43,496 nucleotides of DNA from Gemmatimonadota bacterium (GTDB taxonomy: Bacteria > Gemmatimonadota > Gemmatimonadetes > Gemmatimonadales > Gemmatimonadaceae): the NCBI GenBank assembly GCA_016871895.1, contig VHBO01000015.1:1-43496 (forward strand), read 5' to 3'. A program made the position numbers and the translations under genes. Within the stretch, counting starts at the first letter, position 1. Each line of letters opens with the position of its first letter. The notes beneath the pieces were generated by a model. That model did no database searches, was not told the DNA's origin, and was given only the letters and a program-made list of their open reading frames with translations. This document shows, one piece after another, positions 3,890-39,454 of the stretch.

Positions 3890-3890
3890 C

Positions 3891-5288: not shown

Positions 5289-5301
5289 GGGTCGCGCCTC
5301 C

Positions 5302-8340: not shown

Positions 8341-8349
8341 CGCGGGGTC

Positions 8350-16346: not shown

Positions 16347-16437
16347 CGGGAGGCGGGGTTCGGGGGTATCTTCCGCAGGGATCAACGACGGTCCCAATGT
16401 ACGCGCGCTCCGCTCCCCCCGCTGTGAGGTTCCCTCT

Positions 16438-17004
16438 GTGAAGCGGCTTCTCACCTACTTCCTCCGCGGCCTGGTCCTGACGGTGCCGCTCGCCGTCACG
16501 ATCGCGGTCTGTCTCTGGGTCCTCCGCCGGGTGGACGGGCTCCTCGGACTCGGGATCCCGGGGCTCGGCCTCGTCGTCACGCTGGCCGGCATCACGCTCG
16601 TCGGCTTCCTCGGCTCGACCTTTCTCGCGCAGCAGGCGGAGCAGTGGTTCGACGCGATCCTCGATCGCCTCCCGTTCGTCCGGTTGCTCTATTCCTCCAC
16701 GAAGGACCTGCTCAACGCCTTCGTCGGGGAGCAACGCCGCTTCGACTCCCCCGTGATGGTGACGCTCTCCACCGACGGCGCGATCCGCACCTTCGGCTTC
16801 ATCACCCAAGCCTCGATGGCGCGGCTCGGGATGCCGGGTGACATCGCGGTGTACTTCCCGCAGTCGTACAACTTCGCGGGCCAGGTGCTCGTGGTCCCCG
16901 CGGCTCGCGTCCAGCGACTCACGGCGCCGAGCTCCGAGGTCCTCGCGTTCATCGTGTCGGGCGGCGTCTCGGACGTCCCGACGCCCCGTGCGGAGGGGAT
17001 GTGA
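16438..17004 (+). CDS. DUF502-family integral membrane protein
   Basis: 188 residues from a GTG at 16438, preceded 8-12 bases upstream by GAGG. The start is chosen because the product begins VKRLLTYFLRGLVLTVPLAV, the usual N-terminus of the family; the longer open frame overlaps the divergent peptidase gene. Two membrane spans lie at about residues 8-28 and 40-60, followed by a soluble domain with the conserved LPFVRLLYSSTKDLLNAF and GFITQASMARLG. DUF502 proteins have no firm biochemical role. The gene overlaps the next one as GTGA (17001-17004). Confidence 0.88.
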   Translation: MKRLLTYFLRGLVLTVPLAVTIAVCLWVLRRVDGLLGLGIPGLGLVVTLAGITLVGFLGSTFLAQQAEQWFDAILDRLPFVRLLYSSTKDLLNAFVGEQRRFDSPVMVTLSTDGAIRTFGFITQASMARLGMPGDIAVYFPQSYNFAGQVLVVPAARVQRLTAPSSEVLAFIVSGGVSDVPTPRAEGM

Positions 17005-18356
17005 GACCGGTCCGAACGCTCCACCGCCGAGCATCGGCGGCCCTGACGGCGATGGTGGCCTCGGCCGCGACGGTCGCGTCAGCCGGCGCACCGGCGGCAC
17101 GCCTCCACGCGCAGGACGCGCCGGCTGCCCCTGCCACGTCGATCCTACTGCTCCTCCCCGACCGCGTCTTCATCGGCACGGAAGATTCCGCGCGCACGGG
17201 GTGGGCGGTGCTCGTCACCGGCGACCGGATCACGGCGGTCGGTCCGCGAGCCGAACTCCGTGCGCCGACCGGCACGCGGACGATCGCACTTCCCGGCACG
17301 ACGCTCCTCCCGGGCTTCATCGAAGGTCACACGCACCTCTTCCTGCACCCGTACGACGAGACGAGCTGGAACGACCAGGTGTTGCGCGAGCCGCTGAGTC
17401 TGCGCACGGCGCGAGCCGTCGCCCACGCGCGCGCGACGCTCGAGGCGGGGTTCACCACGGCGCGCGACCTCGGCACCGAGGGGGCGGGCTACGCGGACGC
17501 GGGACTGAAGCAGGCGATCGCGCTGGGGATCATCCCGGGGCCGCGACTGCAGATCGCCTCGAAGGCGATCGTGGCGAGCGGCTCGTACGGGCCGAAGGGG
17601 TTCGCCGATGAGTGGGTCATCCCGCAGGGCGCCGAAGAGGCGGATGGGGTCGAGGGGCTGACCCGCGCTGCGCGCTCGCAGATCGGGCACGGCGCCGACT
17701 GGGTGAAGGTCTACGCCGACTATCGCTGGGGCCCCGCGGGAGAGGCACGCCCGACCTTTTCGGAGGCGGAGCTCCGCACCCTCGTGGAGGTCGCGGCCTC
17801 GAGCGGGCGGCACGTCGTCGCGCACGCCGCGACCGCTGAGGGGATGCGCCGCGCGGTGCTCGCCGGCGTGGCGATGATCGAGCACGGGGACGGCGGCACG
17901 CCGGAGGTGTTCCAGCTGATGGCGCAGCGCGGCGTGACCTTCTGCCCGACGCTCGCGGCGACTGAGGCGACGTCGCGCTACGCCGGGTGGCGCGAGGGGA
18001 TGCCGCCGACGGAGCGAATGGCGCAGAAGCGCGCCGCCTTCACCGCCGCGCGGAACGCCGGTGTCTCGATCTGTATGGGCGGCGATGCCGGGGTGTACGC
18101 GCACGGCACGAACGCGTGGGAGATGGAGCTGCTTGTGCAGTACGGGATGCCCGCCCCCGCTGCGCTCCGTGCGGCGACCAGCGGGAACGCCCGCGCGCTC
18201 GGACTGGCTGAGCGCCTCGGCACCGTGCACCCCGGCCAGCTCGCGGACCTCGTCGCCGTGCGTGGGGACCCGACATGCGAGATCGGCGCGGTGCGCCGCG
18301 TGGAGCTCGTGATGCAGGGTGGGCGCATCGTGCGCGGGGGCGACGCGACGCGATAG
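17001..18356 (+). CDS. Secreted metal-dependent amidohydrolase
   Basis: 451 residues from the GTG at 17001, with ribosome site GGAGGGG just upstream inside the previous gene. An N-terminal signal (about residues 1-40, ending in an Ala-rich stretch near LHAQ) is followed by an imidazolonepropionase/prolidase-type amidohydrolase fold. Metal ligands and active site: H110 and H112 (GHTHLF), carboxylated-Lys candidate K236 (DWVKVYAD), H275 (VVAHAAT), H295 (MIEHGDG) and D362 (MGGDAGVYAHG). The closest characterised types include Xaa-Pro or Xaa-Lys dipeptidases and cyclic-amide hydrolases. The substrate cannot be read from sequence, but a peptide or lactam fits the surrounding exported peptidases. 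Confidence 0.9.
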   Translation: MRPVRTLHRRASAALTAMVASAATVASAGAPAARLHAQDAPAAPATSILLLLPDRVFIGTEDSARTGWAVLVTGDRITAVGPRAELRAPTGTRTIALPGTTLLPGFIEGHTHLFLHPYDETSWNDQVLREPLSLRTARAVAHARATLEAGFTTARDLGTEGAGYADAGLKQAIALGIIPGPRLQIASKAIVASGSYGPKGFADEWVIPQGAEEADGVEGLTRAARSQIGHGADWVKVYADYRWGPAGEARPTFSEAELRTLVEVAASSGRHVVAHAATAEGMRRAVLAGVAMIEHGDGGTPEVFQLMAQRGVTFCPTLAATEATSRYAGWREGMPPTERMAQKRAAFTAARNAGVSICMGGDAGVYAHGTNAWEMELLVQYGMPAPAALRAATSGNARALGLAERLGTVHPGQLADLVAVRGDPTCEIGAVRRVELVMQGGRIVRGGDATR

Positions 18357-18433: not shown

Positions 18434-20614
18434 CTACTTCAACCAGTGACCGAACCAGTCGCGAAGCCGACCGAGCCGGTCGACCAGCAGCCAAGGCTCA
18501 CCGGTCCGCGAGAGATCGTGCGTGGAGCGAGGATAGCGGACGAACTCCACCGGCGTCCCTTGCCGCTTGAGCGCCGCGAACCACTGCTCGGCGTCGGTCA
18601 TCGGGGTGCGGTGATCCTCCTCGCTCTGGAGGATGAAGGTCGGCGTGGTCACCCGCCGCACGTTGCGGATCGGCGAGAGCGAGTCGTACATCGCCGGATT
18701 GTCCCACGGGCGACCGTAGAACTCGAACTCGGTGAGCCCCTGCGCATCGCTCGTCCCGTACCACGACCACCAGTTGGCGATCATCCGGTCGGCCTGCGCC
18801 GCCTTGAAGCGGTTCGTCTGCGTCGTCACCCAGGCGGTCATCACGCCGCCGTACGACCCGCCCGTGACGCCCATCCGCGTGGAGTCCACATCGGGACGCG
18901 CCGCTGCGAGGTCGACGGCCTTCATCAGGTCGAGATAGTCCTCGGCGAACCACCGACCGCGGGTGTCATAGGTGAACTCCGCGCCGTAGCCGCTGGATCC
19001 GCGGGGGTTGGTGTAGAGCACCATGAACCCGGCCGCGGCGAGGTTCTGCGTCTCGTCGAACCACTGCTCGCCGTACTGGCTGTGCGGACCGCCGTGGATA
19101 TAGAGCACGAGGGGGTACTTCCGGCCAGCCTGATAGCCGAAGGGCTTCATCAGCCACCCCTCGATCTCGAGGCTGTCGCGGGATCCTGCACGGCGCGGCA
19201 TCCGGTAGATGAGCTGCTCTGCATCGGACCAGGCGATCTCCCGGTTCACGGCATCGTTGAACGACGTCAGCCGGCGCTCGGGGCGACCGTCCGTGCCGGC
19301 GACGAAGAGTTCGGTCGGCTTCGTGACGCTCGACGAGACGTAGGCGACCTGCTTTCCCGCCGCGTCATAGGCGAAGCCGTTCATCTTGCGGCGGCCGCCG
19401 AGGAGTTCGCGACGCGCGCCCGTCGTGGCGTTCACGAGGTAGAGCGCGCTCGACCCGCCGATGTCGGCCGACATCGCGATCTCGCCGCTCGGGAGCCAAT
19501 CCATCCCCCCCGGCTCGTAGCGCCACCCCTCGGTCAGCACCTTCACCGCGCCGGTCGCGACGTCGGCCACGGCGAGCACCGCCTGCTTCACCCGCCCCGG
19601 GCGCGAGACGAAGGCGATCCGCTTGCCATCCGGCGACCAGGTGAGATCGCTCTCGGCGCCCATCACCGTCGCGACCTTGCGCGGCGAGCCGCCGGCGACC
19701 GGGAGCACATAGATGTCGGACTCGTTACGATCCGCCTCGTCGCGCACGGCGTCATACGGCAGCTCGGCAATCGAGTCGTTGTACGCCGTCACCGCGCTGT
19801 CGGACTTGAGTGCGACATCGGCCGTGAAGGCGATCCACTTGCCGTCGGGGGAGACCACCGGGGCCCGGTGCGAGTAGCTGGTGCTGGTCAGCTGGACGCG
19901 CTTGGCGCCCGGCGTCTGCGTGAATAGCTGCTGCGGCCGGATGACACGCGCTTGGCGCGGACCGGGAAGGAACCCCTGCCCGTTCGCCTTGTAGCGCGCC
20001 TCGGTGATGTGACGGCCGTCGAAGCGCGCCGGATCGACCGGCTTCGTGATCGCCCCGAAGGGCGGGCGCGCCATCGGCTGCATCCGGCCAAACGGGTCGT
20101 TCGCCGCCGCAGGACCACCGCGACCAGCGGCCCCGTTCGGTGCGCCACTCGGCGCGGCGGTGTTCGCGCTGTCTTCGCTGGCCGGCGACGCGAAGACGGC
20201 GAACTTCCCGTCGCGCGGCCACGAGCCGGTGGGATAGTCGGCGACCTGCGCGGCCTCGCCACCCGGCGCGTCCATCCGGATCGCCCAGCTGTTCCCCGTC
20301 CCGCCCGGGCGCGTCGAGGAGAAGAAGAGGTACTTCCCATCTGGGGAGAAGCGCGGGCTGGAGCTCTCGTATCCCGGCGCGGTGTAGCGAACCGCATCGC
20401 CGCCGGCCGTCGGCACCATCCAGACCTCTTGGTGGCGCTTGTTGTCGCGCTCGTTCACCGTCGTCACCGTGAAGGCGACCTGACGCCCATCGGGCGACAT
20501 CGCCGGCTGGGAGACGGTGGTGAGGCGGTACCAGTCGTTCGGCTGCATCGCGCGCGGCGTCTGCGCGGCGAGCGCGGCTGGGAGGAGCACAGCGAGGGGT
20601 AGGAGACGGGGCAT
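18434..20614 (-). CDS. Secreted S9-family prolyl oligopeptidase-type peptidase
   Basis: 726 residues with signal peptide MPRLLPLAVLLPAALAAQ. Residues ~20-470 form a PD40/TolB-type beta-propeller, with repeats such as SPDGKYLFF, SPDGKWIAF and SPDGKRIAF. Residues ~480-726 form the alpha/beta hydrolase with Ser587 (GVTGGSYGGVM), Asp667 (SEEDHRTP) and His699 (RSTHDLSR), the usual spacing of acylaminoacyl-peptidase/dipeptidyl-peptidase relatives. A low-complexity segment rich in Ala, Gly and Pro lies near residues 135-175. It is clearly different from the S9 protein at 13497, so the two are not a recent duplication. Upstream of the ATG is a heptanucleotide repeat array. Confidence 0.92.
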   Translation of the reverse strand: MPRLLPLAVLLPAALAAQTPRAMQPNDWYRLTTVSQPAMSPDGRQVAFTVTTVNERDNKRHQEVWMVPTAGGDAVRYTAPGYESSSPRFSPDGKYLFFSSTRPGGTGNSWAIRMDAPGGEAAQVADYPTGSWPRDGKFAVFASPASEDSANTAAPSGAPNGAAGRGGPAAANDPFGRMQPMARPPFGAITKPVDPARFDGRHITEARYKANGQGFLPGPRQARVIRPQQLFTQTPGAKRVQLTSTSYSHRAPVVSPDGKWIAFTADVALKSDSAVTAYNDSIAELPYDAVRDEADRNESDIYVLPVAGGSPRKVATVMGAESDLTWSPDGKRIAFVSRPGRVKQAVLAVADVATGAVKVLTEGWRYEPGGMDWLPSGEIAMSADIGGSSALYLVNATTGARRELLGGRRKMNGFAYDAAGKQVAYVSSSVTKPTELFVAGTDGRPERRLTSFNDAVNREIAWSDAEQLIYRMPRRAGSRDSLEIEGWLMKPFGYQAGRKYPLVLYIHGGPHSQYGEQWFDETQNLAAAGFMVLYTNPRGSSGYGAEFTYDTRGRWFAEDYLDLMKAVDLAAARPDVDSTRMGVTGGSYGGVMTAWVTTQTNRFKAAQADRMIANWWSWYGTSDAQGLTEFEFYGRPWDNPAMYDSLSPIRNVRRVTTPTFILQSEEDHRTPMTDAEQWFAALKRQGTPVEFVRYPRSTHDLSRTGEPWLLVDRLGRLRDWFGHWLK

Positions 20615-20682: not shown

Positions 20683-22302
20683 TTACGAGCGTGCGGGGAA
20701 CTCCGTTGCGAGGGCCGCCGCGGTGCGGAGCCCGAGCGCGGCGAAGGTGAGGGTCCCGTTGCAGCAGCTCGCCGTCACGTGCGTCGGCGCGCCGGCCACC
20801 CACAGGTTCTCGTGCTGATGCGTGCGCCCGTGGCGATCGACGACGCTCGACGACGGGTCGTCGCCCATCCGACAGCCGCCACCGGGATGCTCCTGTCCGA
20901 TATCTCCCGCCGCTGAGGCGCCGGAGATGATCGTCCCATTCCCCGCGCGGGCCATCCGCGCGAAGAGCGCACGGATCTCCTCCTCCTGCCACCCGCGGAG
21001 TGCTTCGGACTCGGGGGCGTCACGGAACGCCAGCCGCGGCATCGGATCACCCCAGGCGTTGCGCGTGCCGGCGTCCAACGCGATCGCGCTCTCCCGGTCA
21101 GGGAGCACGTCGTAGTACGCCCGGATGCGCGCGACCCCGGTCTTCGCGCGGCGCCGCCAATCCGCCAGCAGCGCATCGCCGACCAGCAGCCCACCGGCCT
21201 CGTCGCGGAGCCGCGGGGCGTGCCCGAACGACGATTCCCACACGCGCAGATCGTGCCGGAGATACCGATCCGCGTGCCCGCGCCGCATGAACTGTTTCGT
21301 CACGAGCGAGTGCTGGACGTTCACCCCGGGCAGGAGATCGAGCGGGAGCTGGATCTGCGCGGCCACGTTGCGATGCCCGCAGAGGTACTTGCCGACGAGC
21401 CCGGAGCGATTCGCCAGCCCGTCTGGGTGCGCCGCGTCCGCCGAGAGGAGGAGCAGGTGCGGCGCCCAGGTGAAGCCACCGGTCAGCACGAAGCTCTTCG
21501 CGCGCACGACGACCGCCTGCGCGTGCTGCCGCGTGGAGTTCCCGGTGGCCTGCGTGACGCGCCCCGTGCGCGGGTCGGCGTGCAGCCGCCGGATCAGCGT
21601 GTCCGTCACGAGCCGGATGCGTCCCGACCGGACGAGCGCGTCGTAGGTGAAGTCCGGCGAGTACTTCGCCCCCGTCGGACAGATGGGATAGCAGGTATCG
21701 CAGCGCTGGCAGACGCCCCGTCCCCCGTGTGCGACCGAATTCTTCGCGCTCGGCTGGCTCCACATCGTCACGCCGGCCGCAGCGGCCCAGCCGCGCAGCT
21801 GCCGCAGGTTGTCGCTCAGCGGAAGCGGGGGGAGCGGGAAGGGCTGACCGCGCGGATCCATCGCCGGAGGCCCCTGCTCGCCGGCGATCCCCATCCGCTC
21901 CTCCGCCTCCTGATAGAAGGGATCGAGTTCCTCGTAGGTGATCGGCCAATCGTCCCCGATGCCGAAGAGGCTCCGCACCTTGAAATCCTCGGGCGCGTAG
22001 CGCGGGGTCACGCCGCCCCAGTGCATCGCGAGCCCGCCGACGTGCATCGACGGCGAGAAGCCATAGGCCGTGCCGAGCGCGTTCTGGTCGTCGACGTGGT
22101 CCTTTGTCCACGGGGACTCACCATAGTCCTTCCAGCGTTGCCGACGTGCATAGCGGTCGCGCAGGGTCGTGGTGTGTGTGCCGGCCTCGATCACGGTGAT
22201 GTGCGCGGTCGTCCGCGCGGCCAGCGATTCCGCCATCATCGCGGCGGTGATCCCCGCGCCGATGAGGCAGATGTCGGTCTCGATCACGCGCGGGGCGGTC
22301 AT
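20683..22302 (-). CDS. GMC-family FAD oxidoreductase (gluconate 2-dehydrogenase type, large subunit)
   Basis: 539 residues from the ATG at 22302, which overlaps the stop of the small-subunit gene as ATGA. An FAD-binding Rossmann segment (ICLIGAGITAAMMAESLA) lies near residue 10 with the acidic VIEAG after it. A cysteine cluster CQRCDTCYPICPTGAKY lies near residue 210, as in GMC dehydrogenases that carry an Fe-S centre between FAD and the electron acceptor. The C-terminal GMC part has HPGGGCRMG and ASCCNGTLTFAALGLR. This type oxidises sugars, sugar acids or alcohols in the periplasm and passes electrons to cytochrome c or quinone. It has no signal of its own, so it is likely exported in complex with the Tat-signal small subunit. 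No cytochrome partner gene is adjacent. Confidence 0.88.
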   Translation of the reverse strand: MTAPRVIETDICLIGAGITAAMMAESLAARTTAHITVIEAGTHTTTLRDRYARRQRWKDYGESPWTKDHVDDQNALGTAYGFSPSMHVGGLAMHWGGVTPRYAPEDFKVRSLFGIGDDWPITYEELDPFYQEAEERMGIAGEQGPPAMDPRGQPFPLPPLPLSDNLRQLRGWAAAAGVTMWSQPSAKNSVAHGGRGVCQRCDTCYPICPTGAKYSPDFTYDALVRSGRIRLVTDTLIRRLHADPRTGRVTQATGNSTRQHAQAVVVRAKSFVLTGGFTWAPHLLLLSADAAHPDGLANRSGLVGKYLCGHRNVAAQIQLPLDLLPGVNVQHSLVTKQFMRRGHADRYLRHDLRVWESSFGHAPRLRDEAGGLLVGDALLADWRRRAKTGVARIRAYYDVLPDRESAIALDAGTRNAWGDPMPRLAFRDAPESEALRGWQEEEIRALFARMARAGNGTIISGASAAGDIGQEHPGGGCRMGDDPSSSVVDRHGRTHQHENLWVAGAPTHVTASCCNGTLTFAALGLRTAAALATEFPARS

Positions 22303-22928
22303 CGGCGCTTCTCCCCGGCGAGCGGGAGCGGACGCCGCGCCGCCTCGGCGAGGGAGCGGCACTGCCCCGCCCCGATGCGCGCGCCGTACGCGAGGTCCTG
22401 CGCGTCGCTGGTCGCGACCCAGTGGGCGAGGAGCGCGACCGCGACGTGGTCGGCCTGCAGCGGGGACGATGGGATCGTGCCGTTGCCCGCGCTGCGCAGT
22501 GCAGCATCGAGCACCGAACGGCGACCGACGAGATCGAGCTGGGCGAAGCCGCGTCGCCGGGTGCGTCGCGCGAGCAGGTCGAGCGCCTGCAGCTGCGCGC
22601 GCCAACCGGGCGCCGGATCGGGCGGCGTGTACGTGAACTCGGCGTAGCCGTAGCCGTGCATCTCCTCGGCCACCGGCGCGTACGCGGCGAGCCACGCGGC
22701 GAACCCCGCGACCGCGGCGGCGCGCCCGGCGGCGCCGAGCGACTCAGGGAGCACCGCGTCGCCGAGGGCTGCAAGCATCGCGGGGTCGAGCGTGCGCGGC
22801 GGTGGCTGTGGAGCCGGCCCCCGAACTGCGGGCGGCTGGGCCGCCTCCGCGTCCGCTGAGGCGGGGAGCGCGGCGGCGGCCGCGCCGAGCACGGTGCTGC
22901 GCAGGAACGTGCGCCGGTCGTGTGTCAT
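22299..22928 (-). CDS. Gluconate 2-dehydrogenase subunit 3 family protein (Tat signal)
   Basis: 209 residues. It begins with a twin-arginine signal, DRRTFLRSTVLGAAAAALPA, then a Pro/Ala-rich linker and a helical domain that starts LDPAMLAALGDAVLPES and includes the family's typical GFAAWLAAY and VALLAHWVATSD regions. In known FAD dehydrogenases (gluconate, fructose, glucose) the small subunit of this family is the escort that carries the flavoprotein across the membrane by Tat. The 4-base overlap with the GMC gene supports a stable pair. A TAGTAT hexamer lies 6 bases before the ATG. Confidence 0.85.
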   Translation of the reverse strand: MTHDRRTFLRSTVLGAAAAALPASADAEAAQPPAVRGPAPQPPPRTLDPAMLAALGDAVLPESLGAAGRAAAVAGFAAWLAAYAPVAEEMHGYGYAEFTYTPPDPAPGWRAQLQALDLLARRTRRRGFAQLDLVGRRSVLDAALRSAGNGTIPSSPLQADHVAVALLAHWVATSDAQDLAYGARIGAGQCRSLAEAARRPLPLAGEKRR

Positions 22929-22940: not shown

Positions 22941-23013
22941 CGACCGACGCCTGCTGGCCGCGACCATCCGAAGCCCGCACATTTTCCCGCCTCCGTTCAG
23001 CCCCGAGGCACCC

Positions 23014-26000
23014 GTGCGGTCGTTCCTCCCCCAGTGGCGCATCGCCGCCGCCCTGCTGCTCCCAATCCTGCTCGTCGGCGCGATCCGCGACCCCGAGCCT
23101 CCGGTCCGTATCCGCGTCGGCGCCCTGCTCGACGGCCGCGGCGGGTCCCGCCGCGATGTGGTGGTCACCGTGCGCGACGGCCGGATCACGTCGATCGATC
23201 CCTTCCGCGCGGGCACCGTCGTCACGTGGGACCTCTCCACGCTGACGATGCTGCCCGGGCTGATCGATACGCACGTGCACATCGACGGGCACTTCGGGCC
23301 CGACGGCCGCGCGGATTCCCGGAGTGAGACGCCGGAGGAGCGACTCCGCGCGACGGCAGAGAATGCCCAGCGCACGCTGCGTGCCGGGTTCACCACCGTC
23401 CAGAGCCTCGGCGCGCCGATCGACCTCGAACTCCGGCGCGAGATCCAAGCGGGCCGATTCGAGGGGCCGCGCGTCCTCACGAGCGCTGGGCAGTGGAGTG
23501 ACGCCTCGCGCCCGCCCGAGGCCATCCGCGCCTGGGTCCGCGCCCGGGTCGCCGACGGCGCCGACGTCATCAAGATTTTCGCTTCCAAGAGCATCCGCGA
23601 AGGGGGCGGGCAGACCCTCTCCGACGAGCAGATTCTCGCCGCCTGCGACGAGGCCCGGCGGCTCGGTCGCCGCAGCTGGGTGCACGCGCACGCCGCCTCG
23701 GCCATCCGCGCCGCCGCCGTCGCGGGATGCACCGGCGTGACGCACGGCACCCAGGCCACACCGGCGGAGCTCACCCTGATGGCGGAGCGCGGCACGTTCT
23801 TCGAGCCGAACATCGGTCTCGTCATCCAGAACTACCTCGAACAGAAGGCCCGCTTCCTCGGCATCGGCAACTACACCGAGGAGGGGTTCGCCTTCATGGA
23901 GGATGCGCTCCCCGGCAACCGCGCGCTCTACCGCGCCGCGATCGCCACACCGGGGCTCCGCGTGGTGATGGGGACCGATGCGGTCGCCGGGGCGCACGGC
24001 CAGAACGCCCGCGAGCTCCTCGCACGCATCGGGGAGGCTGGCCAACCGGCGATGGACGCGATTGTCGGCGCCACCTCACTCGCCGCGGCGTCGTTGGGCA
24101 TCGCCGACAGCGTGGGGAGCGTCGCACCGGGGATGCTCGCGGATCTGATCGCGGTCGAAGGCGACCCGCTCACCGATCCGACCGCGTTGCAGCGGGTGCG
24201 CTTCGTGTTGCAGCGCGGTGCGCCGATCGTGGCCCCGCCGCGTCGGGACCGTCCGCGCGGGCGGAGCGTCGGGTGGGCGACCTACGGGGGCGACCCGGGC
24301 GGGATGAAGTACAGCCCGCTCCAGGACATCGACCGCTCGACGGTGTCGCTCCTGCGCGTGGCGTACACGTGGGACGCGAAGGAGGCGCCGATCCCGGCGG
24401 GACCCGACCAGCGCCCGGCACGCCCCGGAAACTTCCAGGCGACACCGCTCGCGTTCGGGGATACGCTCATCTTCCCCACGCCGTACAACCGCGTCATCGC
24501 ACTCGACGGGCGGACCGGGCGGGAGCTCTGGTCGTTCGATCCCAAGCCGTGGCTGCGCTTCGGCCAGCCGAGCAACGGCACGGGGTTCGTGCATCGCGGG
24601 ATCGCGACCTGGACCGACGGACGGTCTCGACGGGTCTTCCTGAATTCGCGGTGGCGACTCATCGCACTCGACGCCACCACCGGCATCCCCATCCCGAGTT
24701 TCGGCACGAACGGCGAGATCGACCTCACGGCTGGGCTCGACCGCGCCGTGCGAAAGGAGCATTACACGAACACGTCGCCCCCGGTGGTGTGGGGGAACCT
24801 CGTGATCCTCGGCAATGGCGTGGGCGACCGGCTCGTGTATCGCGGTGATCCGCCGGGCGACGTGCAGGCCTTCGACGTGCGGACGGGGCGCCGCGTGTGG
24901 CGCTTCGGGACCGTGCCGCGTGCCGGGGAGTTCGGAGCGGAGACGTGGGGCGATTCGTCAGCCCGGACGACCGGCCACACGAACGTCTGGGCCCCCTTCA
25001 GCGTGGACAGCGCGCGCGGGCTCGTCTTCCTCCCCGTTGGTACTCCGAGCAACGACTGGTACGGCGGCACCCGACCGGGCGACAACCTGTTCGGCGAATC
25101 GCTGGTCTGCCTCGACGCGCGCACCGGGATCCGCGTCTGGCACTTCCAGGTCGCGCATCACGGTCTCTGGGATTACGACCTTCCCGCGCCCCCCAACCTG
25201 ATGACGGTGACGCACGAGCGCCGGCGCACCGACATCGTGGTCGTCCCGACCAAGCAGGGCTTCGTCTTCGCGTTCGAGCGGGCGACCGGTCGCCCGCTCT
25301 GGCCAATCGACGAGCGTGCGGTGCCGGCGAGCGATGTGCCCGGGGAGCGCGCGTCGCCGACCCAGCCGATCCCCACCCGCCCCGCCCCCTTCTCCCGGCA
25401 GGGGTTCTCGACCGGCGACGTGCTCGCCTTCACGCCGGCGCTCCGACAGGCGGCGCTCGACGAGATCGCACCATTCCGCCTCGGTCCGATCTATACGCCG
25501 CCCTCCCTCCAGGGGACGGTCGCGATGCCCGGGGTGATCGGTGGGGCGGGATGGGGCGGGGCCGCCGCCGACCCAGCGAGTGGCTGGGTCTTCATCAAGG
25601 CGACCAACTCGCCGGCGCTCTTCCGCCTGCAGCGGCGCGACGTAGCCAGTGACACGGTGGACGCGCCGTATATGCTCGATCTCCCGAACTCGACGCTCGG
25701 CGTGTCGCAACGCGACAACGCGGAGGGGGCGGTGCGCGACGCGGCGCGATTGCCCATCAACGCGCCGCCGTACGGCACGCTCACCGCGATCGATCTGGGG
25801 CGCGGGGAGATCCGCTGGCAGGTCCCGCTGGGAGACACGCCGGAGGTCCGGAGCCATCCCGCGCTCCGGAGCGCCGTGCTCCCGGAGCGGCTCGGCGTCG
25901 CGGGCTCGCCGGGCGGGCTCGTGACCGCCGGTGGATTGGTCTTCGTCGCCGGAGGCGGACGGACGCTGTACGCCATCGACACGCGGACGGGTACGGTGCT

Positions 26001-26133
26001 CTGGGAGCATCCGCTCGGCGACATCGGGTACGCCAACCCGATGACCTGGCGCGGGACCGACGGGGTGCAACGCGTCGCGATCGCGACCGGCAGCGGGACG
26101 ACGTCGCGGCTCGTGGTGTTCGCCCTTCCTTAA
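23014..26133 (+). CDS. Secreted fusion: amidohydrolase + PQQ-dependent quinoprotein dehydrogenase
   Basis: 1039 residues from the GTG at 23014 (GAGG 5-8 bases upstream); this start gives a signal peptide, VRSFLPQWRIAAALLLPILL. Residues ~30-405 are a metal-dependent amidohydrolase: HXH near 87 (IDTHVHIDGH), Lys near 186 (ADVIKIFASK), then WVHAHAAS, GVTHGTQA and Asp near 321 (MGTDAVAGAHG). Residues ~420-1039 are an eight-bladed PQQ propeller opening with WATYGGDPGGMKYSPL. Glucose-dehydrogenase-type active-site segments follow: HFQVAHHGLWDYDLPAPP near 710-727 (catalytic Asp) and VVPTKQGFVFAFE near 743-755 (Lys). The join is in frame, with a short basic linker (APPRRDRPRGRS). No heme or membrane domain follows. 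Both halves keep key residues, so both may be active. Confidence 0.88.
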   Translation: MRSFLPQWRIAAALLLPILLVGAIRDPEPPVRIRVGALLDGRGGSRRDVVVTVRDGRITSIDPFRAGTVVTWDLSTLTMLPGLIDTHVHIDGHFGPDGRADSRSETPEERLRATAENAQRTLRAGFTTVQSLGAPIDLELRREIQAGRFEGPRVLTSAGQWSDASRPPEAIRAWVRARVADGADVIKIFASKSIREGGGQTLSDEQILAACDEARRLGRRSWVHAHAASAIRAAAVAGCTGVTHGTQATPAELTLMAERGTFFEPNIGLVIQNYLEQKARFLGIGNYTEEGFAFMEDALPGNRALYRAAIATPGLRVVMGTDAVAGAHGQNARELLARIGEAGQPAMDAIVGATSLAAASLGIADSVGSVAPGMLADLIAVEGDPLTDPTALQRVRFVLQRGAPIVAPPRRDRPRGRSVGWATYGGDPGGMKYSPLQDIDRSTVSLLRVAYTWDAKEAPIPAGPDQRPARPGNFQATPLAFGDTLIFPTPYNRVIALDGRTGRELWSFDPKPWLRFGQPSNGTGFVHRGIATWTDGRSRRVFLNSRWRLIALDATTGIPIPSFGTNGEIDLTAGLDRAVRKEHYTNTSPPVVWGNLVILGNGVGDRLVYRGDPPGDVQAFDVRTGRRVWRFGTVPRAGEFGAETWGDSSARTTGHTNVWAPFSVDSARGLVFLPVGTPSNDWYGGTRPGDNLFGESLVCLDARTGIRVWHFQVAHHGLWDYDLPAPPNLMTVTHERRRTDIVVVPTKQGFVFAFERATGRPLWPIDERAVPASDVPGERASPTQPIPTRPAPFSRQGFSTGDVLAFTPALRQAALDEIAPFRLGPIYTPPSLQGTVAMPGVIGGAGWGGAAADPASGWVFIKATNSPALFRLQRRDVASDTVDAPYMLDLPNSTLGVSQRDNAEGAVRDAARLPINAPPYGTLTAIDLGRGEIRWQVPLGDTPEVRSHPALRSAVLPERLGVAGSPGGLVTAGGLVFVAGGGRTLYAIDTRTGTVLWEHPLGDIGYANPMTWRGTDGVQRVAIATGSGTTSRLVVFALP

Positions 26134-26141
26134 AGGCGGCG

Positions 26142-27320
26142 CTACCGAGCGCTGAACGACCGGAGCACCTTCCCCGCCCGTGCCGCCGCCTCGGCGATGC
26201 GCTCCGGGCTCGTGATGAAGGAGATCCGGAAGAATCCCTCGCCGCCGGCCCCCAGCGCCGCCCCGGCGAGGACGATCACCCCCTCCTCCTCCATCAGGCG
26301 CTCGTGGAAGGCCATCGAAGAGACGCCGGCCGGCAGCGGCACCCAGAGATACATCGACGCCCTCGGCGCCTCCGCAATCTCGAAACCGTTCGCGCGGAAC
26401 GCGGCGACCGCCGCATCACGCCGCTCGCGGAAGATCGCGACGTTCCCCGGCACCCACTCGGCCCACGACTCGAGTGCGGCAATCCCCGCGCGCTGCACGG
26501 CCATGAACTGCCCCGTGTCGAGGAAGCTCTTCACCTTGGCGAGCGCCCCGACGATCGTCGGGTTGCCGCAGGCCCACGCGCAGCGCCACCCGGTCATGTT
26601 GTAGGTCTTGGACAGCGAGTGGAACTCGATCGCGCAGTCGCGCGCGCCGGGCACATCGAAGATGCTCGGCGCCACATACCCGTCGAAGGTCATCTCCGAG
26701 TACGCGTTGTCGTAGACGAGCACGATCCCCCGCCGATTGCAGACCTCGACGACCTTCGTGAGGTAGTCGAGCGGTGCGATCGCCGAGGTCGGGTTGTTCG
26801 GGTAATTCAGGTAGAGGAGCTTCGTCCGCGCGAGCACCTCCTCGGGAATCTCATCGAGGTCGACGAGGAAGTTCGTGCGCGGCGTGATCGGATAGAGGTA
26901 CGGCTCCGCTTCACTGAGTAACGTCCCGCCGAGGTAGGCGAGGTAGCCGGGATCGGGGATGATGACCGCATCACCCGGCTGCGCGAAGGCGAAGGCGAGA
27001 TGCGCGAGCCCTTCCTTGCTGCCGATGAGCGGGACGATCTCCTTGAGCGGATCGAAGCGGTGCCCGAAGCGCCGCTCCATCCAGGCGCTCACCGCCTCGC
27101 GGAAGGCCGGGAGTCCGAGCCCGAAACCGTAGCGGCTGAGCCCGGGCTCGTGCGCGGCCTGGGCGAGCGCCTCCACCGCCGCCGGCGGCGCGGGGAGGTC
27201 GGCATCACCGGCGCCGAGGTCGATGACGTCCATCCCGCGCGCGATGAGATCGCGCTTCTTCTGCGGGATGGTGGCGAGCAGGTAGACGGGGAGCGAGTTG
27301 AAGCGGCGGGTGGTACGCAT
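26142..27320 (-). CDS. Class I/II PLP aminotransferase, probably in tyrosine breakdown
   Basis: 392 residues, fold type I. PLP Lys238 lies in SLSKTYNMTGWRCAW; other family motifs are YLNYPNNPTSAIAPL, VYDNAYSEMTFDG and the C-terminal FFRISFITS. The sequence resembles the LL-diaminopimelate/alanine aminotransferase (DapL/AlaC) branch. Its position after hmgA and hpd makes aromatic (tyrosine) transamination to 4-hydroxyphenylpyruvate a reasonable inference, but lysine or alanine metabolism is possible. It has its own TAGATT motif in the 29-base gap, so it may also be transcribed alone. It ends 8 bases from the convergent fusion gene, with no hairpin between. Confidence 0.85.
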   Translation of the reverse strand: MRTTRRFNSLPVYLLATIPQKKRDLIARGMDVIDLGAGDADLPAPPAAVEALAQAAHEPGLSRYGFGLGLPAFREAVSAWMERRFGHRFDPLKEIVPLIGSKEGLAHLAFAFAQPGDAVIIPDPGYLAYLGGTLLSEAEPYLYPITPRTNFLVDLDEIPEEVLARTKLLYLNYPNNPTSAIAPLDYLTKVVEVCNRRGIVLVYDNAYSEMTFDGYVAPSIFDVPGARDCAIEFHSLSKTYNMTGWRCAWACGNPTIVGALAKVKSFLDTGQFMAVQRAGIAALESWAEWVPGNVAIFRERRDAAVAAFRANGFEIAEAPRASMYLWVPLPAGVSSMAFHERLMEEEGVIVLAGAALGAGGEGFFRISFITSPERIAEAAARAGKVLRSFSAR

Positions 27321-27326
27321 CCAAGA

Positions 27327-27332
27327 AATCTA
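27327..27332 (-). promoter_or_regulatory. TAGATT -10-like hexamer 6 bases before the aminotransferase start
   Basis: On the minus strand TAGATT is followed by TCTTGG and the ATG at 27320. It lies wholly within the 29-base gap after hmgA. A weak GCTGAC 16 bases upstream could act as -35. It indicates an internal, leaderless transcript start for the last gene of the cluster. Confidence 0.45.
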
Positions 27333-27349
27333 GCGCCGCCCCGCGCGCG

Positions 27350-28531
27350 TCAGCTCGTCGGCGGCGAGAAGCCCGACCCGCCCTCGACCCAGCTGTACAT
27401 GTACTTCGGGTCCTCGTAGGGTAGGATCGCCTGCGCGACCTTCAGCGGGCGGAACGAGTCCATCATCACGGCGAGCTCGTTCGTGTGCGTCATCCCGATG
27501 CTCCCCTCGTACCGGCCCGGATGCGGCCCGTGCGGGATGCCGTCCGGATGGTGCGTGATGGAGCCGTATTCGATCCCCTTCCGGCTCATGAACTCGCTCG
27601 AGGCGTAGAAGAGCACCTCGTCGGAGTCCACGTTGCTGTGGTTGTACGGCGCCGGGATCGCCTCGGGATGGAAGTCGTACGGGCGCGGGCAGAAGGAGCA
27701 GATGACGAAGCCGTCGCCCTGGAAGGTCTGGTGCACCGGCGGCGGCTGATGGACGCGCCCCACGATCGGCTCAAAGTCGTGGATGTTGAACGCCCACGGG
27801 TAGAACTGGCCGTCCCACCCCACCACGTCGAGCGGGTGGTGATCGAGGACGATCTCATTGAGGCCGTTGTACTGCTTGATGACGATGGGGAACGCCCCCT
27901 TCTCGTCGTGCGTGCGCAGCTCGCGCGGGATGCGGATATCGCGCTCGCTGTACGGCGCCCCCTCGACGAGCTGGCCCACCGCATTCAGGTAGCGCTTCGG
28001 CGGCCGCACGTGCCCACGACTCTCCATCACCAGGAGCTTCGCCGGCTTGGTGAAGCGATAGCGGTGCAGGATGTGCCGATGGATGACGAGATAATCCCCG
28101 GGGATGAACGGGAGGTCGCCGTACTGGGTCTCGAGGTGCCCCTCCCCCTCGGCCACGTAGACGACCTCGTCCCCCTGCGCGTTCCGATAGAAATGCTCGT
28201 CCTCGCGGTCCGGCGCGACGTAGAGCATCGCGATGTCGTTGTTGAACAGCATCGGCACGCGGTCGAGCGTCGGGCTCCCGCCGCGGGCGACCCCGGCGGT
28301 CCGGAAGTGCCGGTGCTTGAGCGTCTTGTCGTCGCTCGCGAGGTAGGGCGTCTCACGGAGGCGCCGGACCGAGGTGACCGTCGTGGGCGGATGGATGTGG
28401 TACAGGAGCGCCGCCGGGCCGGTGAAGCCCTCGATGCCGACCAACTGCTCGTGGTAGACCGAACCGTCCGGCTTCCGGAAGGCGATGTGCCGCTTGCGCG
28501 GGATCGTGCCCAGCGTGTGGTAGTACGGCAT
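27350..28531 (-). CDS. hmgA: Homogentisate 1,2-dioxygenase
   Basis: 393 residues, cupin-type Fe(II) dioxygenase. The iron-site region is visible towards the C-terminus: PAPYNHSNVDSDEVLFY gives the first His and the Glu a few residues later, and ITHHPDGIPHGPHPGRYEGS gives the next His residues. It opens the ring of homogentisate to maleylacetoacetate in tyrosine catabolism. It is translationally coupled to hpd, whose stop overlaps its start as TGATG. The neighbouring gene order supports the assignment. Confidence 0.94.
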   Translation of the reverse strand: MPYYHTLGTIPRKRHIAFRKPDGSVYHEQLVGIEGFTGPAALLYHIHPPTTVTSVRRLRETPYLASDDKTLKHRHFRTAGVARGGSPTLDRVPMLFNNDIAMLYVAPDREDEHFYRNAQGDEVVYVAEGEGHLETQYGDLPFIPGDYLVIHRHILHRYRFTKPAKLLVMESRGHVRPPKRYLNAVGQLVEGAPYSERDIRIPRELRTHDEKGAFPIVIKQYNGLNEIVLDHHPLDVVGWDGQFYPWAFNIHDFEPIVGRVHQPPPVHQTFQGDGFVICSFCPRPYDFHPEAIPAPYNHSNVDSDEVLFYASSEFMSRKGIEYGSITHHPDGIPHGPHPGRYEGSIGMTHTNELAVMMDSFRPLKVAQAILPYEDPKYMYSWVEGGSGFSPPTS

Positions 28532-29655
28532 CAGAGGTTCCCGCGGAGCGCCTGCTCCCGCTCGATGCTCTCAAAGAGCGCCTTGAAGTTGCCGGCGCCG
28601 AAGCTCTTGGCGCCCTTCCGCTGGATGATCTCGAAGAAGAGCGTCGGGCGGTCCTGCACCGGCTTCGTGAAGATCTGGAGCAGATATCCCTCGTCGTCGC
28701 GGTCCACGAGGATCCCGAGCTCGGCGAGCGGAGCGATGTCCTCGTCGATCGTCCCGACCCGGTCGAGCACCGTCTCGTAGTACGTGCGCGGGATGGAGAG
28801 GAACTCGACGCCACGCGCCTTCAGCGCCCGGACGGTCGTGATGATGTCGTCCGTCGCCACGGCGATGTGCTGCACGCCGGGCCCGCGGTAGAAGTCGAGG
28901 TATTCCTCGATCTGCGACTTCTTCTTCCCCTGCGCCGGCTCGTTGATCGGGAACTTGATGCGTCCGTTCCCATTGCTCATCACCTTCGACATCAGCGCCG
29001 AGTACTCGGTCGAGATCGTCTTGTCGTCGAAGGAGAGGAGGTTGTAGAAGCCGAGAACCCGCGAGTAGAACTCGACCCAGTGGTTCATCTGGCCGAGCTC
29101 GACGTTCCCGACGCAGTGGTCGACGTACTTGAGGCCGACCGGCTCGGGCTGATACGGGTTCTCCGCGGCACGGAAGCCCGGGAGGAAGACGCCCGTGTAG
29201 CCGGAGCGCTGGACGATCGAGTGGATGGTGTCGCCGTAGGTCCGGATGGCGGCGATCACGACAGTGCCGTGTTCATCGCGGAGCTCCGTCGGCTCCTGCA
29301 CCGAGGTGGCACCCCGCTCCACGGCCTTAGCCCAGGCGTCGCGGGCGTCATCGACCCAGAAGGCCATATCGCGCACACCATCGCCGTGCCTGACGACGTG
29401 CGCCGCGACCTCGCCCTCGGGACCCATCGGCGTGGTGAGGACGAGCCGGATCTTCCCCTGCTCGAGCACGTAGCTCGCGCGGTCGCGCGTCCCCGTCTCG
29501 GGGCCGCGGTACGCCACCAGCCGGAAGCCGAAGGCGGCACGGTAGAAGAGCTGGGATTGCTTCGCATTGCCGACCCAGAACTCGATGTAATCGGTCCCGT
29601 TGATCGGGAAGGTGTCGTGGGCGGTCTCGACGTTTGGCGCGGTGGACGTGGCCAT
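28531..29655 (-). CDS. hpd: 4-Hydroxyphenylpyruvate dioxygenase
   Basis: 374 residues from the ATG at 29655 (MATSTAPNVE); the open frame extends far upstream but overlaps the next gene and has no family sequence. Two vicinal-oxygen-chelate halves are present. Fe(II) ligands are H180 (KYVDHCVGN), H263 (GVQHIAVA) and E342 (LFFEIIQRKG), and the C-terminal helix carries FKALFESIE. It converts 4-hydroxyphenylpyruvate to homogentisate, the substrate of the next gene. The 86-base gap upstream has no clear Shine-Dalgarno. Confidence 0.95.
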   Translation of the reverse strand: MATSTAPNVETAHDTFPINGTDYIEFWVGNAKQSQLFYRAAFGFRLVAYRGPETGTRDRASYVLEQGKIRLVLTTPMGPEGEVAAHVVRHGDGVRDMAFWVDDARDAWAKAVERGATSVQEPTELRDEHGTVVIAAIRTYGDTIHSIVQRSGYTGVFLPGFRAAENPYQPEPVGLKYVDHCVGNVELGQMNHWVEFYSRVLGFYNLLSFDDKTISTEYSALMSKVMSNGNGRIKFPINEPAQGKKKSQIEEYLDFYRGPGVQHIAVATDDIITTVRALKARGVEFLSIPRTYYETVLDRVGTIDEDIAPLAELGILVDRDDEGYLLQIFTKPVQDRPTLFFEIIQRKGAKSFGAGNFKALFESIEREQALRGNL

Positions 29656-29741
29656 GGCGACGAACGAGCTGGAGGGTGAAGGACGGGCGACGCCGCAGCG
29701 CCCCCGGGAACCTCGGCGCCCACCGAATCCGCCGGCGGCGC

Positions 29742-31802
29742 CTACCCTGCCAATATATCCCGGTACTCGTCTAGGGACCCCGGATTGGCGAGGGCGTCGG
29801 TGTTCCGGACGGGGCGCCCGTGGATCGTCTCGCGAACGGCGATCTCGGAGATCTTCCCGCTGATCGTCCGCGGGATGTCGCGCACCGCTCGGATCACCTT
29901 CGGGACGTGGTGCGGGCTCGTGGCCGCACGAATCGCCGCGCGGACCTTGGCCTCGAGCGCCGCGTCGAGCGTCGCGCCGGGCTGGAGCCGTACGAAGAGG
30001 ACGATCCGCACGTCGCGGTCGGCGCCCTCCCCCACCTCCTGCCCCACGACGACGCTCTCGAGGAGCTCCGGGAGCTGGTCCACCACGCGGTAGATCTCTG
30101 CCGTCCCGATCCGCACGCCCCCAGGGTTGAGCGTGGCGTCGCTTCGGCCGTGGATGATCATCCCGCCGTGCGCCGTCAGCTCCGCCCAGTCCCCGTGGCG
30201 CCACGCGCCATCGAAGTGCTCGAAGTACGCCGCGCGGTACTTCGCGCCATCGGGGTCGTTCCAGAAGGCGACGGGCATCGACGGGAAGGGCCGCGTGCAG
30301 ACGAGCTCGCCCGCCTCCCCGCGCACCGGCCGCCCCTCCGCATCCCACACGTCCACCGCCATCCCGAGCCCGAGGCACTGCAGCTCGCCGCGCCAGACGG
30401 GGATCATCGGGTTGCCGAGAGCGAAGCAGCTGATGAGATCGGTGCCGCCTGAGATGCTCGCGAGCTGAACGCCCGGCTTCACATCCCGCATCACGAAGTC
30501 GTAGCTGTGCTCCGCGAGCGGGCTGCCGGTGGAGCAGATGGCGCGGAGCGCCGAGAGGTCGTGCGTGCGCGCGGGGGCGAGCCTCATCTTCTCCGCCATC
30601 GCGAGGTATTTGGCGCTCGTCCCGAAGACCGCCACCTGCTCCTCTGCGGCGAGGTCCCAGAGGATCCCCGGCCGCGCGTCAGGGAGGGGCGCGCCGTCGT
30701 AGAGCACGATCGCCGCCCCACTCGCGAGCGCCGTCACGAGCCAGTTCCACATCATCCACCCACAGGTGGTGAAGTAGAAGAGCCGATCCCCTGGATGCAG
30801 GTCGACGTGGAGCTGATGCTCCTTGAGGTGCTGCAGCAGCGTGCCACCGGCGCCGTGCACCATACACTTCGGGAGTCCGGTCGTCCCCGAGCTGTACATG
30901 ATGTAGAGCGGATGATCGAACGGGAGCGGCGCGAACCGCTCCGGCGCGTCGGCGCCGCGCGCCAGATAGTCGTCCCAGCGCACCGCGGTCGGCAGCGCGC
31001 GCGCCAGATCCGCAGCGGCGGTCTCGTCCCCGAGGAAAGGCACCACGACCAGCCTCTCGAGGCTCGGCAACGCCGCGACGATCTCCGCCGTGCGCGCCAC
31101 GCAGTCGATCCGCTTCCCCGCGTAGTGATAGCCGTCGGCGGCGAGGAGGACCTTCGGGGCGATCTGCCCGAACCGATCGAGCACTCCCCCGACGCCGAAA
31201 TCGGGGGAGCAGGAGGACCAGACCGCGCCGAGGCTCGATGCCGCGAGCGCACCGATGACCGCTTCGGGGATGTTCGGCAGGAAGCCGACGACGCGATCCC
31301 CTGGCCCGACCCCCTCCTCGCGCAGCGCCCCCGCGAGTCGCCGGACCGCATCGGCGAGGGCGACGGCGCTGAACTCGCGCCGCCCGCCGCGCTCGTCGCG
31401 CGCGATGATCGCCGGCCGATCATCCCGCCGGCGCAGGAGGTTCTCGGCGAAGTTCAGCCGCGCACCGGGGAACCAACGCGGCCCACCCGTCGCGGTCGGC
31501 GGCGCCATCCAGTCGCCATCGACGAGCACCGCGTCCCACGCCGCGCGCGTCGCGATCGTGGTGGTGCCCGCGCCGGAGTCCGCGGCGGTGCTCGTGCTCG
31601 CGAGCACCCCACACTGGCGCCACACCTGCGCCCAGAAGCGCGACGGCTCGCGGACCGACCAGGCGTGCCACTCGGCGTAGGGCGCCGTCGGCCCCGGCGC
31701 CGTCTCGTCGAGTGCGGCGACGGTGAACTGGAAGCGCGCGAGATGGGTCCGGGCAGCCTGCAGCGGGTCCGGCGTCCAGAGCGGGAGGCGGTCGTCGGCC
31801 AT
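29742..31802 (-). CDS. Acetoacetyl-CoA synthetase (acetoacetate--CoA ligase)
   Basis: 686 residues, longer than acetyl-CoA synthetase and of the size of acetoacetyl-CoA synthetases. ANL-superfamily motifs: P-loop MYSSGTTGLPKCMVHGAGG near residue 290, SGGTDLIS near 450, WRHGDWAEL near 530, and the C-terminal catalytic Lys in PRTISGKISEI. The N-terminal part (YAEWHAWSVREPSRFWAQVW) is typical of the acetoacetate branch. Acetoacetate is an end product of tyrosine breakdown, so its place at the head of the hpd-hmgA cluster makes chemical sense. A TAGATT hexamer precedes the ATG by 6 bases. Confidence 0.9.
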   Translation of the reverse strand: MADDRLPLWTPDPLQAARTHLARFQFTVAALDETAPGPTAPYAEWHAWSVREPSRFWAQVWRQCGVLASTSTAADSGAGTTTIATRAAWDAVLVDGDWMAPPTATGGPRWFPGARLNFAENLLRRRDDRPAIIARDERGGRREFSAVALADAVRRLAGALREEGVGPGDRVVGFLPNIPEAVIGALAASSLGAVWSSCSPDFGVGGVLDRFGQIAPKVLLAADGYHYAGKRIDCVARTAEIVAALPSLERLVVVPFLGDETAAADLARALPTAVRWDDYLARGADAPERFAPLPFDHPLYIMYSSGTTGLPKCMVHGAGGTLLQHLKEHQLHVDLHPGDRLFYFTTCGWMMWNWLVTALASGAAIVLYDGAPLPDARPGILWDLAAEEQVAVFGTSAKYLAMAEKMRLAPARTHDLSALRAICSTGSPLAEHSYDFVMRDVKPGVQLASISGGTDLISCFALGNPMIPVWRGELQCLGLGMAVDVWDAEGRPVRGEAGELVCTRPFPSMPVAFWNDPDGAKYRAAYFEHFDGAWRHGDWAELTAHGGMIIHGRSDATLNPGGVRIGTAEIYRVVDQLPELLESVVVGQEVGEGADRDVRIVLFVRLQPGATLDAALEAKVRAAIRAATSPHHVPKVIRAVRDIPRTISGKISEIAVRETIHGRPVRNTDALANPGSLDEYRDILAG

Positions 31803-33111: not shown

Positions 33112-33193
33112 GCCGATAGCGTCGCTCCGGTCCTCGCCGCATCTTGTCCGTCCGGCGTCACGCGCCGGTCTCGTTCCCTCACCCCACTCCGTG

Positions 33194-38060: not shown

Positions 38061-39454
38061 CAGCGGGCCTCCGGCGAGATGATGATGGTGAGCGCCCGGT
38101 CGGAGCGCAGATAGGTGCGAGCCACCCGCTGCAGATCCGCGACGGTCACCGCCTCGTAGCGGGCCGCATCGGTGTTCACTGCGGCGGGGCTGCCGAGATA
38201 GAGCGTGGCGTAGTGCACGGCCTCGGAGAGGCTCAGCGCCGTCTGCCGGCCGAGGATGGTGGCGGCGCGCCAGCTGTTCTTCGCCTTCGTCAGCTCGGCG
38301 TCGGTGATCCCATCGGCGGCCCGACGCAGCTCGTCCGTGACCGTCGCGGCGAGGCTGTCGGCGGTGACGCCCTGATTGGCGATCGCGAGGACGCCGAAGA
38401 TCCCGGCCGCGCGCATGGGGCCGAAGGGATTGAAGAGCGCCTGCGTGCCGGCCGCCACCCGCCGCTCGCGGACGAGGGCGCGGTTGAGCCGCGAACTCTC
38501 GCCACTCCCGAGGATCGTCGAGAGGAGCTCGAGGGCCGGATGGTCGGCGTGGGCCGGCGGCACCGTGCGGACCGCCGAGAGGACGGCGGGCAGCGTGGCG
38601 TTCTTGTCGGTCACGCGCTCGACGCGTCCCGCCGCGCCACCTTCCCCACAGGTCACCCCCGGCGGCACCGACGCGCCGCGCGGGATCGATCCGAAGTACT
38701 CCGTCACGAGGCGCCGCACCGTCGCGGGGGTGACGTCACCCGTCACGACGAGGGTCGCGTTGTTCGGGGCATAGTACAGATCGAAGAAGCCTTGCACGTC
38801 CGCGACCGTCGCGGCGTTGAGGTCGTCCATCGAGCCGATGATCGAGTGCGCGTAGGCGAAGCAGGCGGTCCGGTCGAAGAGGGCGGGCATCCCTTCGATG
38901 AAGGCGCCGGTATACGGCTGGTTGTCGACGCGCAGCCGCCGCTCCTCCTTCACCGCTTCCTGCTGGTTCTTGAGATTCTCGGCGGTCACTGCGAGCGACC
39001 GCATCCGATCCGCCTCGAGCCAGAGCGCGAGGTTGAGGCGGTTCGACGGGAGCGCCTCGTAGTAGTTCGTGCGATCCGGCTGCGTCGACCCATTCATCTC
39101 GCCGCCGGCGCGCTCGATGAACTGGAAGTGCTCGGCCTTCTTCACGTTCGCCGAGCCCTGAAACATCATGTGCTCGAAAAGGTGCGCGAAGCCGGTGCGC
39201 CCGGGGCGCTCGTTCCGCGACCCGACGTCATACCAGACGTTGACCGCCACCACCTGCGCGGAGTGGTCCTCGACCACGTGCACCGTGAGGCCGTTGGGAA
39301 GGGTGAAGGTCTCCACCTTGACCGGGGCCGGGGCCTGCGCCGCGAGAACCCCCGCACCGAGCGCCATCGCGCCGAGCACGCGCATCACCTGCGGTCGAAC
39401 CAGCCGTCGCACCTGCCGCATCCGAAATCTCCGTTGAAAGGTGTTCCAGTTCAT
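38060..39454 (-). CDS. Active M16-family zinc metallopeptidase, exported
   Basis: 464 residues from the ATG at 39454, which overlaps the dut stop as ATGA; in-frame ATGs 11 and 23 codons later are alternatives closer to the signal sequence (MRVLGAMALGAGVLAAQA). The inverted zinc motif is H91-L-F-E94-H95 in GRTGFAHLFEHMMFQGS. The third ligand is a Glu roughly 75 residues later, as is usual. Two M16 halves make up the chain. With the inactive chain encoded next it should form a heterodimeric peptidase in the periplasm that cuts peptides or misfolded segments. Confidence 0.9.
   Translation of the reverse strand: MNWNTFQRRFRMRQVRRLVRPQVMRVLGAMALGAGVLAAQAPAPVKVETFTLPNGLTVHVVEDHSAQVVAVNVWYDVGSRNERPGRTGFAHLFEHMMFQGSANVKKAEHFQFIERAGGEMNGSTQPDRTNYYEALPSNRLNLALWLEADRMRSLAVTAENLKNQQEAVKEERRLRVDNQPYTGAFIEGMPALFDRTACFAYAHSIIGSMDDLNAATVADVQGFFDLYYAPNNATLVVTGDVTPATVRRLVTEYFGSIPRGASVPPGVTCGEGGAAGRVERVTDKNATLPAVLSAVRTVPPAHADHPALELLSTILGSGESSRLNRALVRERRVAAGTQALFNPFGPMRAAGIFGVLAIANQGVTADSLAATVTDELRRAADGITDAELTKAKNSWRAATILGRQTALSLSEAVHYATLYLGSPAAVNTDAARYEAVTVADLQRVARTYLRSDRALTIIISPEAR

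Follow-up and report, generated by a model that had tools for sequence, protein, structure and literature searches.

Does one reading frame in a Gemmatimonadaceae genome really encode two enzymes, and if so, what might a protein that carries both of them do? The window, which is the entire 43,496-nucleotide stretch of contig VHBO01000015.1 that we analysed, contains a stop-free frame on the forward strand at 23014-26133. Its product, of 1,039 amino acids, has an Amidohydro_1 domain joined by a short linker to a complete PQQ propeller. The GTG start at 23014 is backed by a GAGG ribosome-binding site 5 nt before it (23005-23008), and translation terminates with the stop at 26133. The five other fused orthologues have an ATG at the position equivalent to this GTG, mostly with a similar GAGG before it. 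Residues 1-27 (23014-23094, +; MRSFLPQWRIAAALLLPILLVGAIRDP, with the GTG read as M) form a hydrophobic leader, likely a Sec signal peptide. The N-termini of the orthologues differ in sequence yet stay hydrophobic, and AlphaFold returns low pLDDT for residues 1-25. The sequence-only reading of this locus had described the product as secreted; the hydrophobic N-terminus makes export plausible.

The amidohydrolase domain spans residues 31-404 (23104-24225, +), the linker residues 405-420 (24226-24273, +) and the PQQ beta-propeller dehydrogenase domain residues 421-1039 (24274-26130, +). These edges coincide with those of free-standing family members, in agreement with the sequence-only reading. 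The linker is the least conserved segment of the whole protein, with 47-88% identity between pairs of orthologues. The AlphaFold model consists of two confident domains (mean pLDDT 88) separated by a low-confidence linker with pLDDT < 50 at residues 410-416, and its pTM of 0.64 means that the mutual placement of the two domains and their active sites is not reliable.

Joining of two separate genes by an assembly, frameshift or annotation error deserves consideration for this locus, as the source is a draft assembly of 129 contigs. A homologue spanning both domains had been proposed as the check, and the fusion survives it. Full-length, stop-free orthologues with 73-83% identity are present in six genomes from three genera of one family, Gemmatimonadaceae: the source genome (G000), G109 (83%), and G014, G132, G009 and G010 (74-76%). 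Three of these genomes correspond to the records JALHNZ01, JAGWYS01 and CAMBNV01. The six proteins align end to end. Values of dN/dS between 0.07 and 0.26 in the hydrolase half and the propeller half (Nei-Gojobori, five pairs) establish that both halves are under purifying selection. With the same join found stop-free in six independent genomes, the linker in frame and selection acting across the join, an artefact or chance join is refuted, and we regard its probability as vanishingly small. Distribution of the fusion is patchy, with 6 of 179 family genomes carrying it at the depth searched. Two further candidates, L080 (Gemmatimonadaceae) and L087 (Bryobacterales), had the appearance of full-length fusions in the scan but were rejected, each consisting of two genes in different frames. 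A search for viral relatives of the linker region found none, and fold matches to viral proteins were set aside as generic propellers and hydrolases only.

The front half can be assigned with some detail. Pfam Amidohydro_1 matches residues 78-394 with an E-value of 5e-33 and 115 bits against a cut-off of 25. The top PDB sequence match is 3mtw (Cc2672; E 1.6e-43), which is also a fold match (E 2e-35, TM 0.86 on the target), pointing to a TIM-barrel amidohydrolase fold. Foldseek retrieves Cc2672 together with Xaa-Pro dipeptidase and ochratoxin amidohydrolases. The metal site is invariant across the six fused proteins, with residues H87, H89, K187, H224, H244 and D322. They comprise the HxH motif, the bridging Lys, two His and the Asp, that is, the complete ligand set of the binuclear type I (COG1228-like) amidohydrolase superfamily, and the ligand set of the homologue ochratoxinase fits the same residues (PMC11342369). 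The front half is thus likely a binuclear-metal amidohydrolase of the Cc2672 / Xaa-Arg-dipeptidase / ochratoxinase group, its activity being predicted from these similarities. The window contains a second, free-standing amidohydrolase at 17001-18353 (+), with 34% identity to the fused one.

Pfam PF01011 covers residues 421-1020 of the back half with an E-value of 1e-186, matching 594 of 595 profile positions. The TIGR03074 match begins at profile position 151 and reaches 403 bits, under the cut-off of 833. Neither the membrane domain of Gcd nor a haem domain is present. Since the membrane domain is absent and the score falls under the family cut-off, the back half is filed by sequence as Gcd-like and not as a TIGR03074 member. 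In alignment with E. coli Gcd, residues H262, R266, D354, W404, D466 and K493 correspond to H527, R528, D605, W659, D720 and K747 of the fused protein, while Gcd N355 and N607 are replaced by R606 and K862. The sequence-only reading had held both catalytic sets to be complete; this stands for the metal site, where every residue is invariant, and for the main Gcd-type active-site residues, with the two asparagine replacements as a qualification. Foldseek matches of the back half are quinoprotein alcohol and methanol dehydrogenases. Together, these features suggest a Gcd-type PQQ dehydrogenase for sugars, polyols or related alcohols. The segment D720-Y-D722 (window 25171-25179) places a DxD at the PQQ metal site, reminiscent of the additional Asp found in lanthanide-dependent alcohol dehydrogenases; E. 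coli Gcd has DMD at the same site, so the motif does not decide between Ca and a lanthanide.

Supply of the cofactor appears to depend on the surroundings. The genome search returned no match to PqqC or PqqD, and its PqqE-like matches stayed below the cut-off, as they did in every control genome; synthesis of PQQ in this genome was rejected on these grounds. The fused relatives G009, G010 and G014 likewise lack PqqC. Because nothing in the genome matches PqqC, PqqD or PqqE above the cut-off, PQQ would have to be scavenged from outside the cell. Import of PQQ by PqqU has been reported as widespread in Gemmatimonadetes (PMC12124388), which makes an apo-enzyme loaded with imported PQQ the simplest reading.

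Two genes that diverge from the fusion may encode a second oxidising system. The nearer one (22299-22928, -) encodes a small subunit resembling gluconate 2-dehydrogenase subunit 3, with the twin-arginine motif DRRTFLRS. Its PF13618 score of 22.0 bits lies just below the cut-off of 23.4, which its G021 orthologue exceeds with 25.0 bits. It is followed by a GMC flavoprotein gene (20683-22314, -) of the FAD glucose / fructose dehydrogenase catalytic-subunit type, carrying GMC_oxred_N and GMC_oxred_C. Its product matches PDB 6a2u (E 1e-59) and the fructose dehydrogenase large subunit (E 3e-58) over nearly its full length. The two genes thereby supply the GMC catalytic subunit and the Tat-exported small subunit that characterise the FAD-GDH / gluconate 2-dehydrogenase complexes. 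Both genes adjoin the fusion in five of the six fused genomes and were not found on the contig of the sixth (G109). The same pair recurs in Gemmatimonadota and Acidobacteriota beside unfused PQQ genes, PQQ-less hydrolase genes, or both. At the G021 locus, the order on one strand is small subunit, GMC, hydrolase and PQQ dehydrogenase. Most unfused PQQ loci have neither the hydrolase nor the FAD pair, and the link between hydrolase, PQQ and FAD-dehydrogenase genes is frequent, not obligatory. A Pfam scan of the neighbours detected no multi-haem cytochrome c subunit.

The remaining surroundings include several recognisable groups. At 26142-30400 (-), aminotransferase, homogentisate-dioxygenase-like and 4-hydroxyphenylpyruvate-dioxygenase-like genes stand in a row, a probable tyrosine catabolism cluster that is conserved in relatives. 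Cytochrome c, NrfD-like, molybdopterin/FeS and multihaem cytochrome genes at 2629-9075 (-) look like an alternative complex III cluster. The window is also rich in peptidases, with two S9 prolyl-oligopeptidase-type, one Met-zincin and two M16 genes (13497-16454, -; 18434-20614, -; 33191-35797, +; 35973-39616, -).

Phylogenies of the two halves offer a view of how the fusion came about. The six fused propellers are monophyletic in the PQQ tree and nest within unfused Gemmatimonadaceae orthologues. The six fused hydrolases likewise make up a single clade in the hydrolase tree (support 100/99), and this clade groups (99/97) with hydrolases joined to a different propeller, of the FG-GAP / UnbV_ASPIC type, in proteins of ~890 residues. 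These nearest kin of the fused hydrolase represent a second fusion class in Gemmatimonadaceae, encoded at loci L064-L071 (e.g. L071, 5570-8221, +), with the amidohydrolase preceding the propeller. Both trees indicate that the hydrolase-PQQ fusion arose once.

A straightforward route to such a protein would be read-through of a neighbouring gene pair. At 12 loci in Gemmatimonadota and Acidobacteriota, an unfused PQQ orthologue is immediately preceded by a hydrolase gene on the same strand, and six of the ten junctions examined have a 4-nt ATGA/GTGA overlap. Read-through of such pairs, as found in sister genera, was nevertheless rejected as the origin, since the fused hydrolase groups with the FG-GAP-fused ones and an AU test rejects forcing the fused hydrolases together with the adjacent-gene hydrolases (p 6.4e-5). 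The same result implies that the association of hydrolase and PQQ dehydrogenase is not one inherited event. At L087, from Bryobacterales (Acidobacteriota), the hydrolase is placed elsewhere in the tree. The link has thus been made more than once, in the fused protein, among the adjacent-gene hydrolases of Gemmatimonadaceae and at L087, and this repetition argues for a shared task. In the alphaproteobacterium Sphingomonas sp. dw_22 (L101), a PQQ dehydrogenase gene also has two related amidohydrolase genes within 5 kb. About three quarters of the 43 unfused PQQ loci in the phylum lack an adjoining hydrolase, which suggests that the dehydrogenase can work without one.

Within the source genus, the fusion is carried by 4 of 17 genomes, and two close relatives illustrate its absence. 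G008 and G013 keep the GMC gene (94% and 90%), the small-subunit gene and the flanking aminotransferase gene. Where the fusion would lie in G013 (L199, 5840-5945), there is a gap of ~75 nt. It contains a 45-nt relic whose translation matches the C-terminal end of the PQQ half (GTTSRLVVFTL) and whose alignment score is 45, compared with at most 25 in 500 shuffles. This remnant of the 3' end indicates deletion of the fused gene in G013. G008 has an unrelated 1.3-kb stretch with a 433-codon frame in place of the fusion (L198, 4541-5840). Missing from two close relatives, the fusion is dispensable.

We propose, with slightly better than even confidence, an exported two-headed enzyme whose halves are both active on the same compound, within a catabolic module of the cell envelope that includes the FAD pair. 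The short flexible linker would ensure that both halves are exported together in a 1:1 ratio. The back half would be a Gcd-type dehydrogenase that has lost the membrane anchor of E. coli Gcd, and the neighbouring GMC protein with its small subunit would oxidise the same class of substrate. Amide or ester hydrolysis before oxidation is slightly more likely than the opposite order, as the characterised relatives of the hydrolase group cut amide bonds. The complete scheme remains tentative, a little short of an even chance: hydrolysis and PQQ-dependent oxidation of one substrate, in sequence, by one exported protein, which together with the FAD pair would constitute a previously undescribed catabolic module of the envelope, put together repeatedly from hydrolase, quinoprotein and flavoprotein in Gemmatimonadota and Acidobacteriota. 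Conservation, selection, complete catalytic residues and the repeated association of hydrolase, PQQ and FAD genes speak for a module with a shared substrate, whereas the hydrolase-less PQQ loci, the FG-GAP fusions, the losses in G013 and G008 and the pTM of 0.64 speak against it.

The halves might also act in the reverse order. The PQQ half would then oxidise an aldose or cyclic hemiacetal to a lactone, the hydrolase half would open the lactone and pull the reaction forward, and the FAD pair would oxidise the resulting acid, as in the periplasmic route from glucose via gluconolactone and gluconate to ketogluconate. The Gcd-type PQQ domain and the neighbours resembling gluconate 2-dehydrogenase subunit 3 and FAD glucose dehydrogenase bring together three genes with the gene content of the glucose - gluconate - ketogluconate route, and this likeness makes it a serious rival; lactonases are moreover known within the amidohydrolase superfamily. 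However, sequence and structure comparisons alike give the front half only amide hydrolases as close characterised relatives (Cc2672, Xaa-Pro dipeptidase and the ochratoxin amidohydrolases), and the residue equivalent to Gcd N607 is not conserved; we consider the reverse order unlikely. A further explanation dispenses with metabolic coupling and treats the fusion as an accident, neutral or structural: one half would serve as scaffold, anchor or stability partner of the other, and the hydrolase lineage would simply acquire beta-propellers. The FG-GAP fusions of the same lineage may indeed mean that propeller partners are tolerated for structural reasons, and the loss of the fused gene in two close relatives along with its patchy occurrence in the family would fit as well. 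Such an accident is harder to reconcile with invariant catalytic residues in both halves, with independent hydrolase-PQQ gene pairs, often overlapping at their ends, and with neighbours shared with other sugar oxidoreductase genes; we judge it improbable.

Action of both halves on one compound remains our preferred reading. The parts of the protein are of known kinds in a new domain architecture. The pairing had been put forward as undescribed, and the literature searched, which misses most subscription journals, yielded no relevant paper on a hydrolase joined to a PQQ dehydrogenase. As far as this literature shows, no bifunctional enzyme combining a hydrolase with a quinoprotein has been described before, and the fused protein would be the first. 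When enzymes that usually occur separately are fused, they often turn out to be partners in a pathway. The PQQ dehydrogenase family concerned lacks an assigned function and is common in uncultured Gemmatimonadota, bacteria that probably depend on scavenged PQQ; the fusion, the independent hydrolase-PQQ pairs and the shared FAD neighbours together offer a concrete lead to its substrate.

Comparison with known systems places each part of the locus. The front half shares its fold and metal-site residues with Cc2672 (3MTW) and the Xaa-Arg/Xaa-Pro dipeptidase - ochratoxinase group, at 33% identity in the structural alignment, but those enzymes are free-standing and none carries a PQQ propeller. The sister proteins of L064-L071 have a hydrolase domain 59-63% identical to the fused one and likewise a C-terminal beta-propeller, which in their case is of the FG-GAP / UnbV_ASPIC type and gives no quinoprotein match. 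The GMC flavoprotein resembles the catalytic subunit of FAD glucose / fructose dehydrogenase complexes (6A2U, 7W2J), and the small subunit is probably the counterpart of their export partner; here, however, this system neighbours the fused protein instead of forming part of it, and no adjoining cytochrome subunit gene was identified. The catalytic region of E. coli Gcd, the membrane-bound PQQ glucose dehydrogenase of TIGR03074, aligns with the back half at 31% identity and shares its main PQQ-site residues, while the fused protein differs in its missing membrane domain, its sub-cut-off score, the replacement of N355 and N607 and the hydrolase in front. The unfused PQQ dehydrogenases of Gemmatimonadota (e.g. 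G093, G065 and G021) have an orthologous propeller with 55-73% identity and a signal-like N-terminus of their own; in them, the hydrolase is not part of the same chain but is encoded directly upstream in the 12 loci described above.
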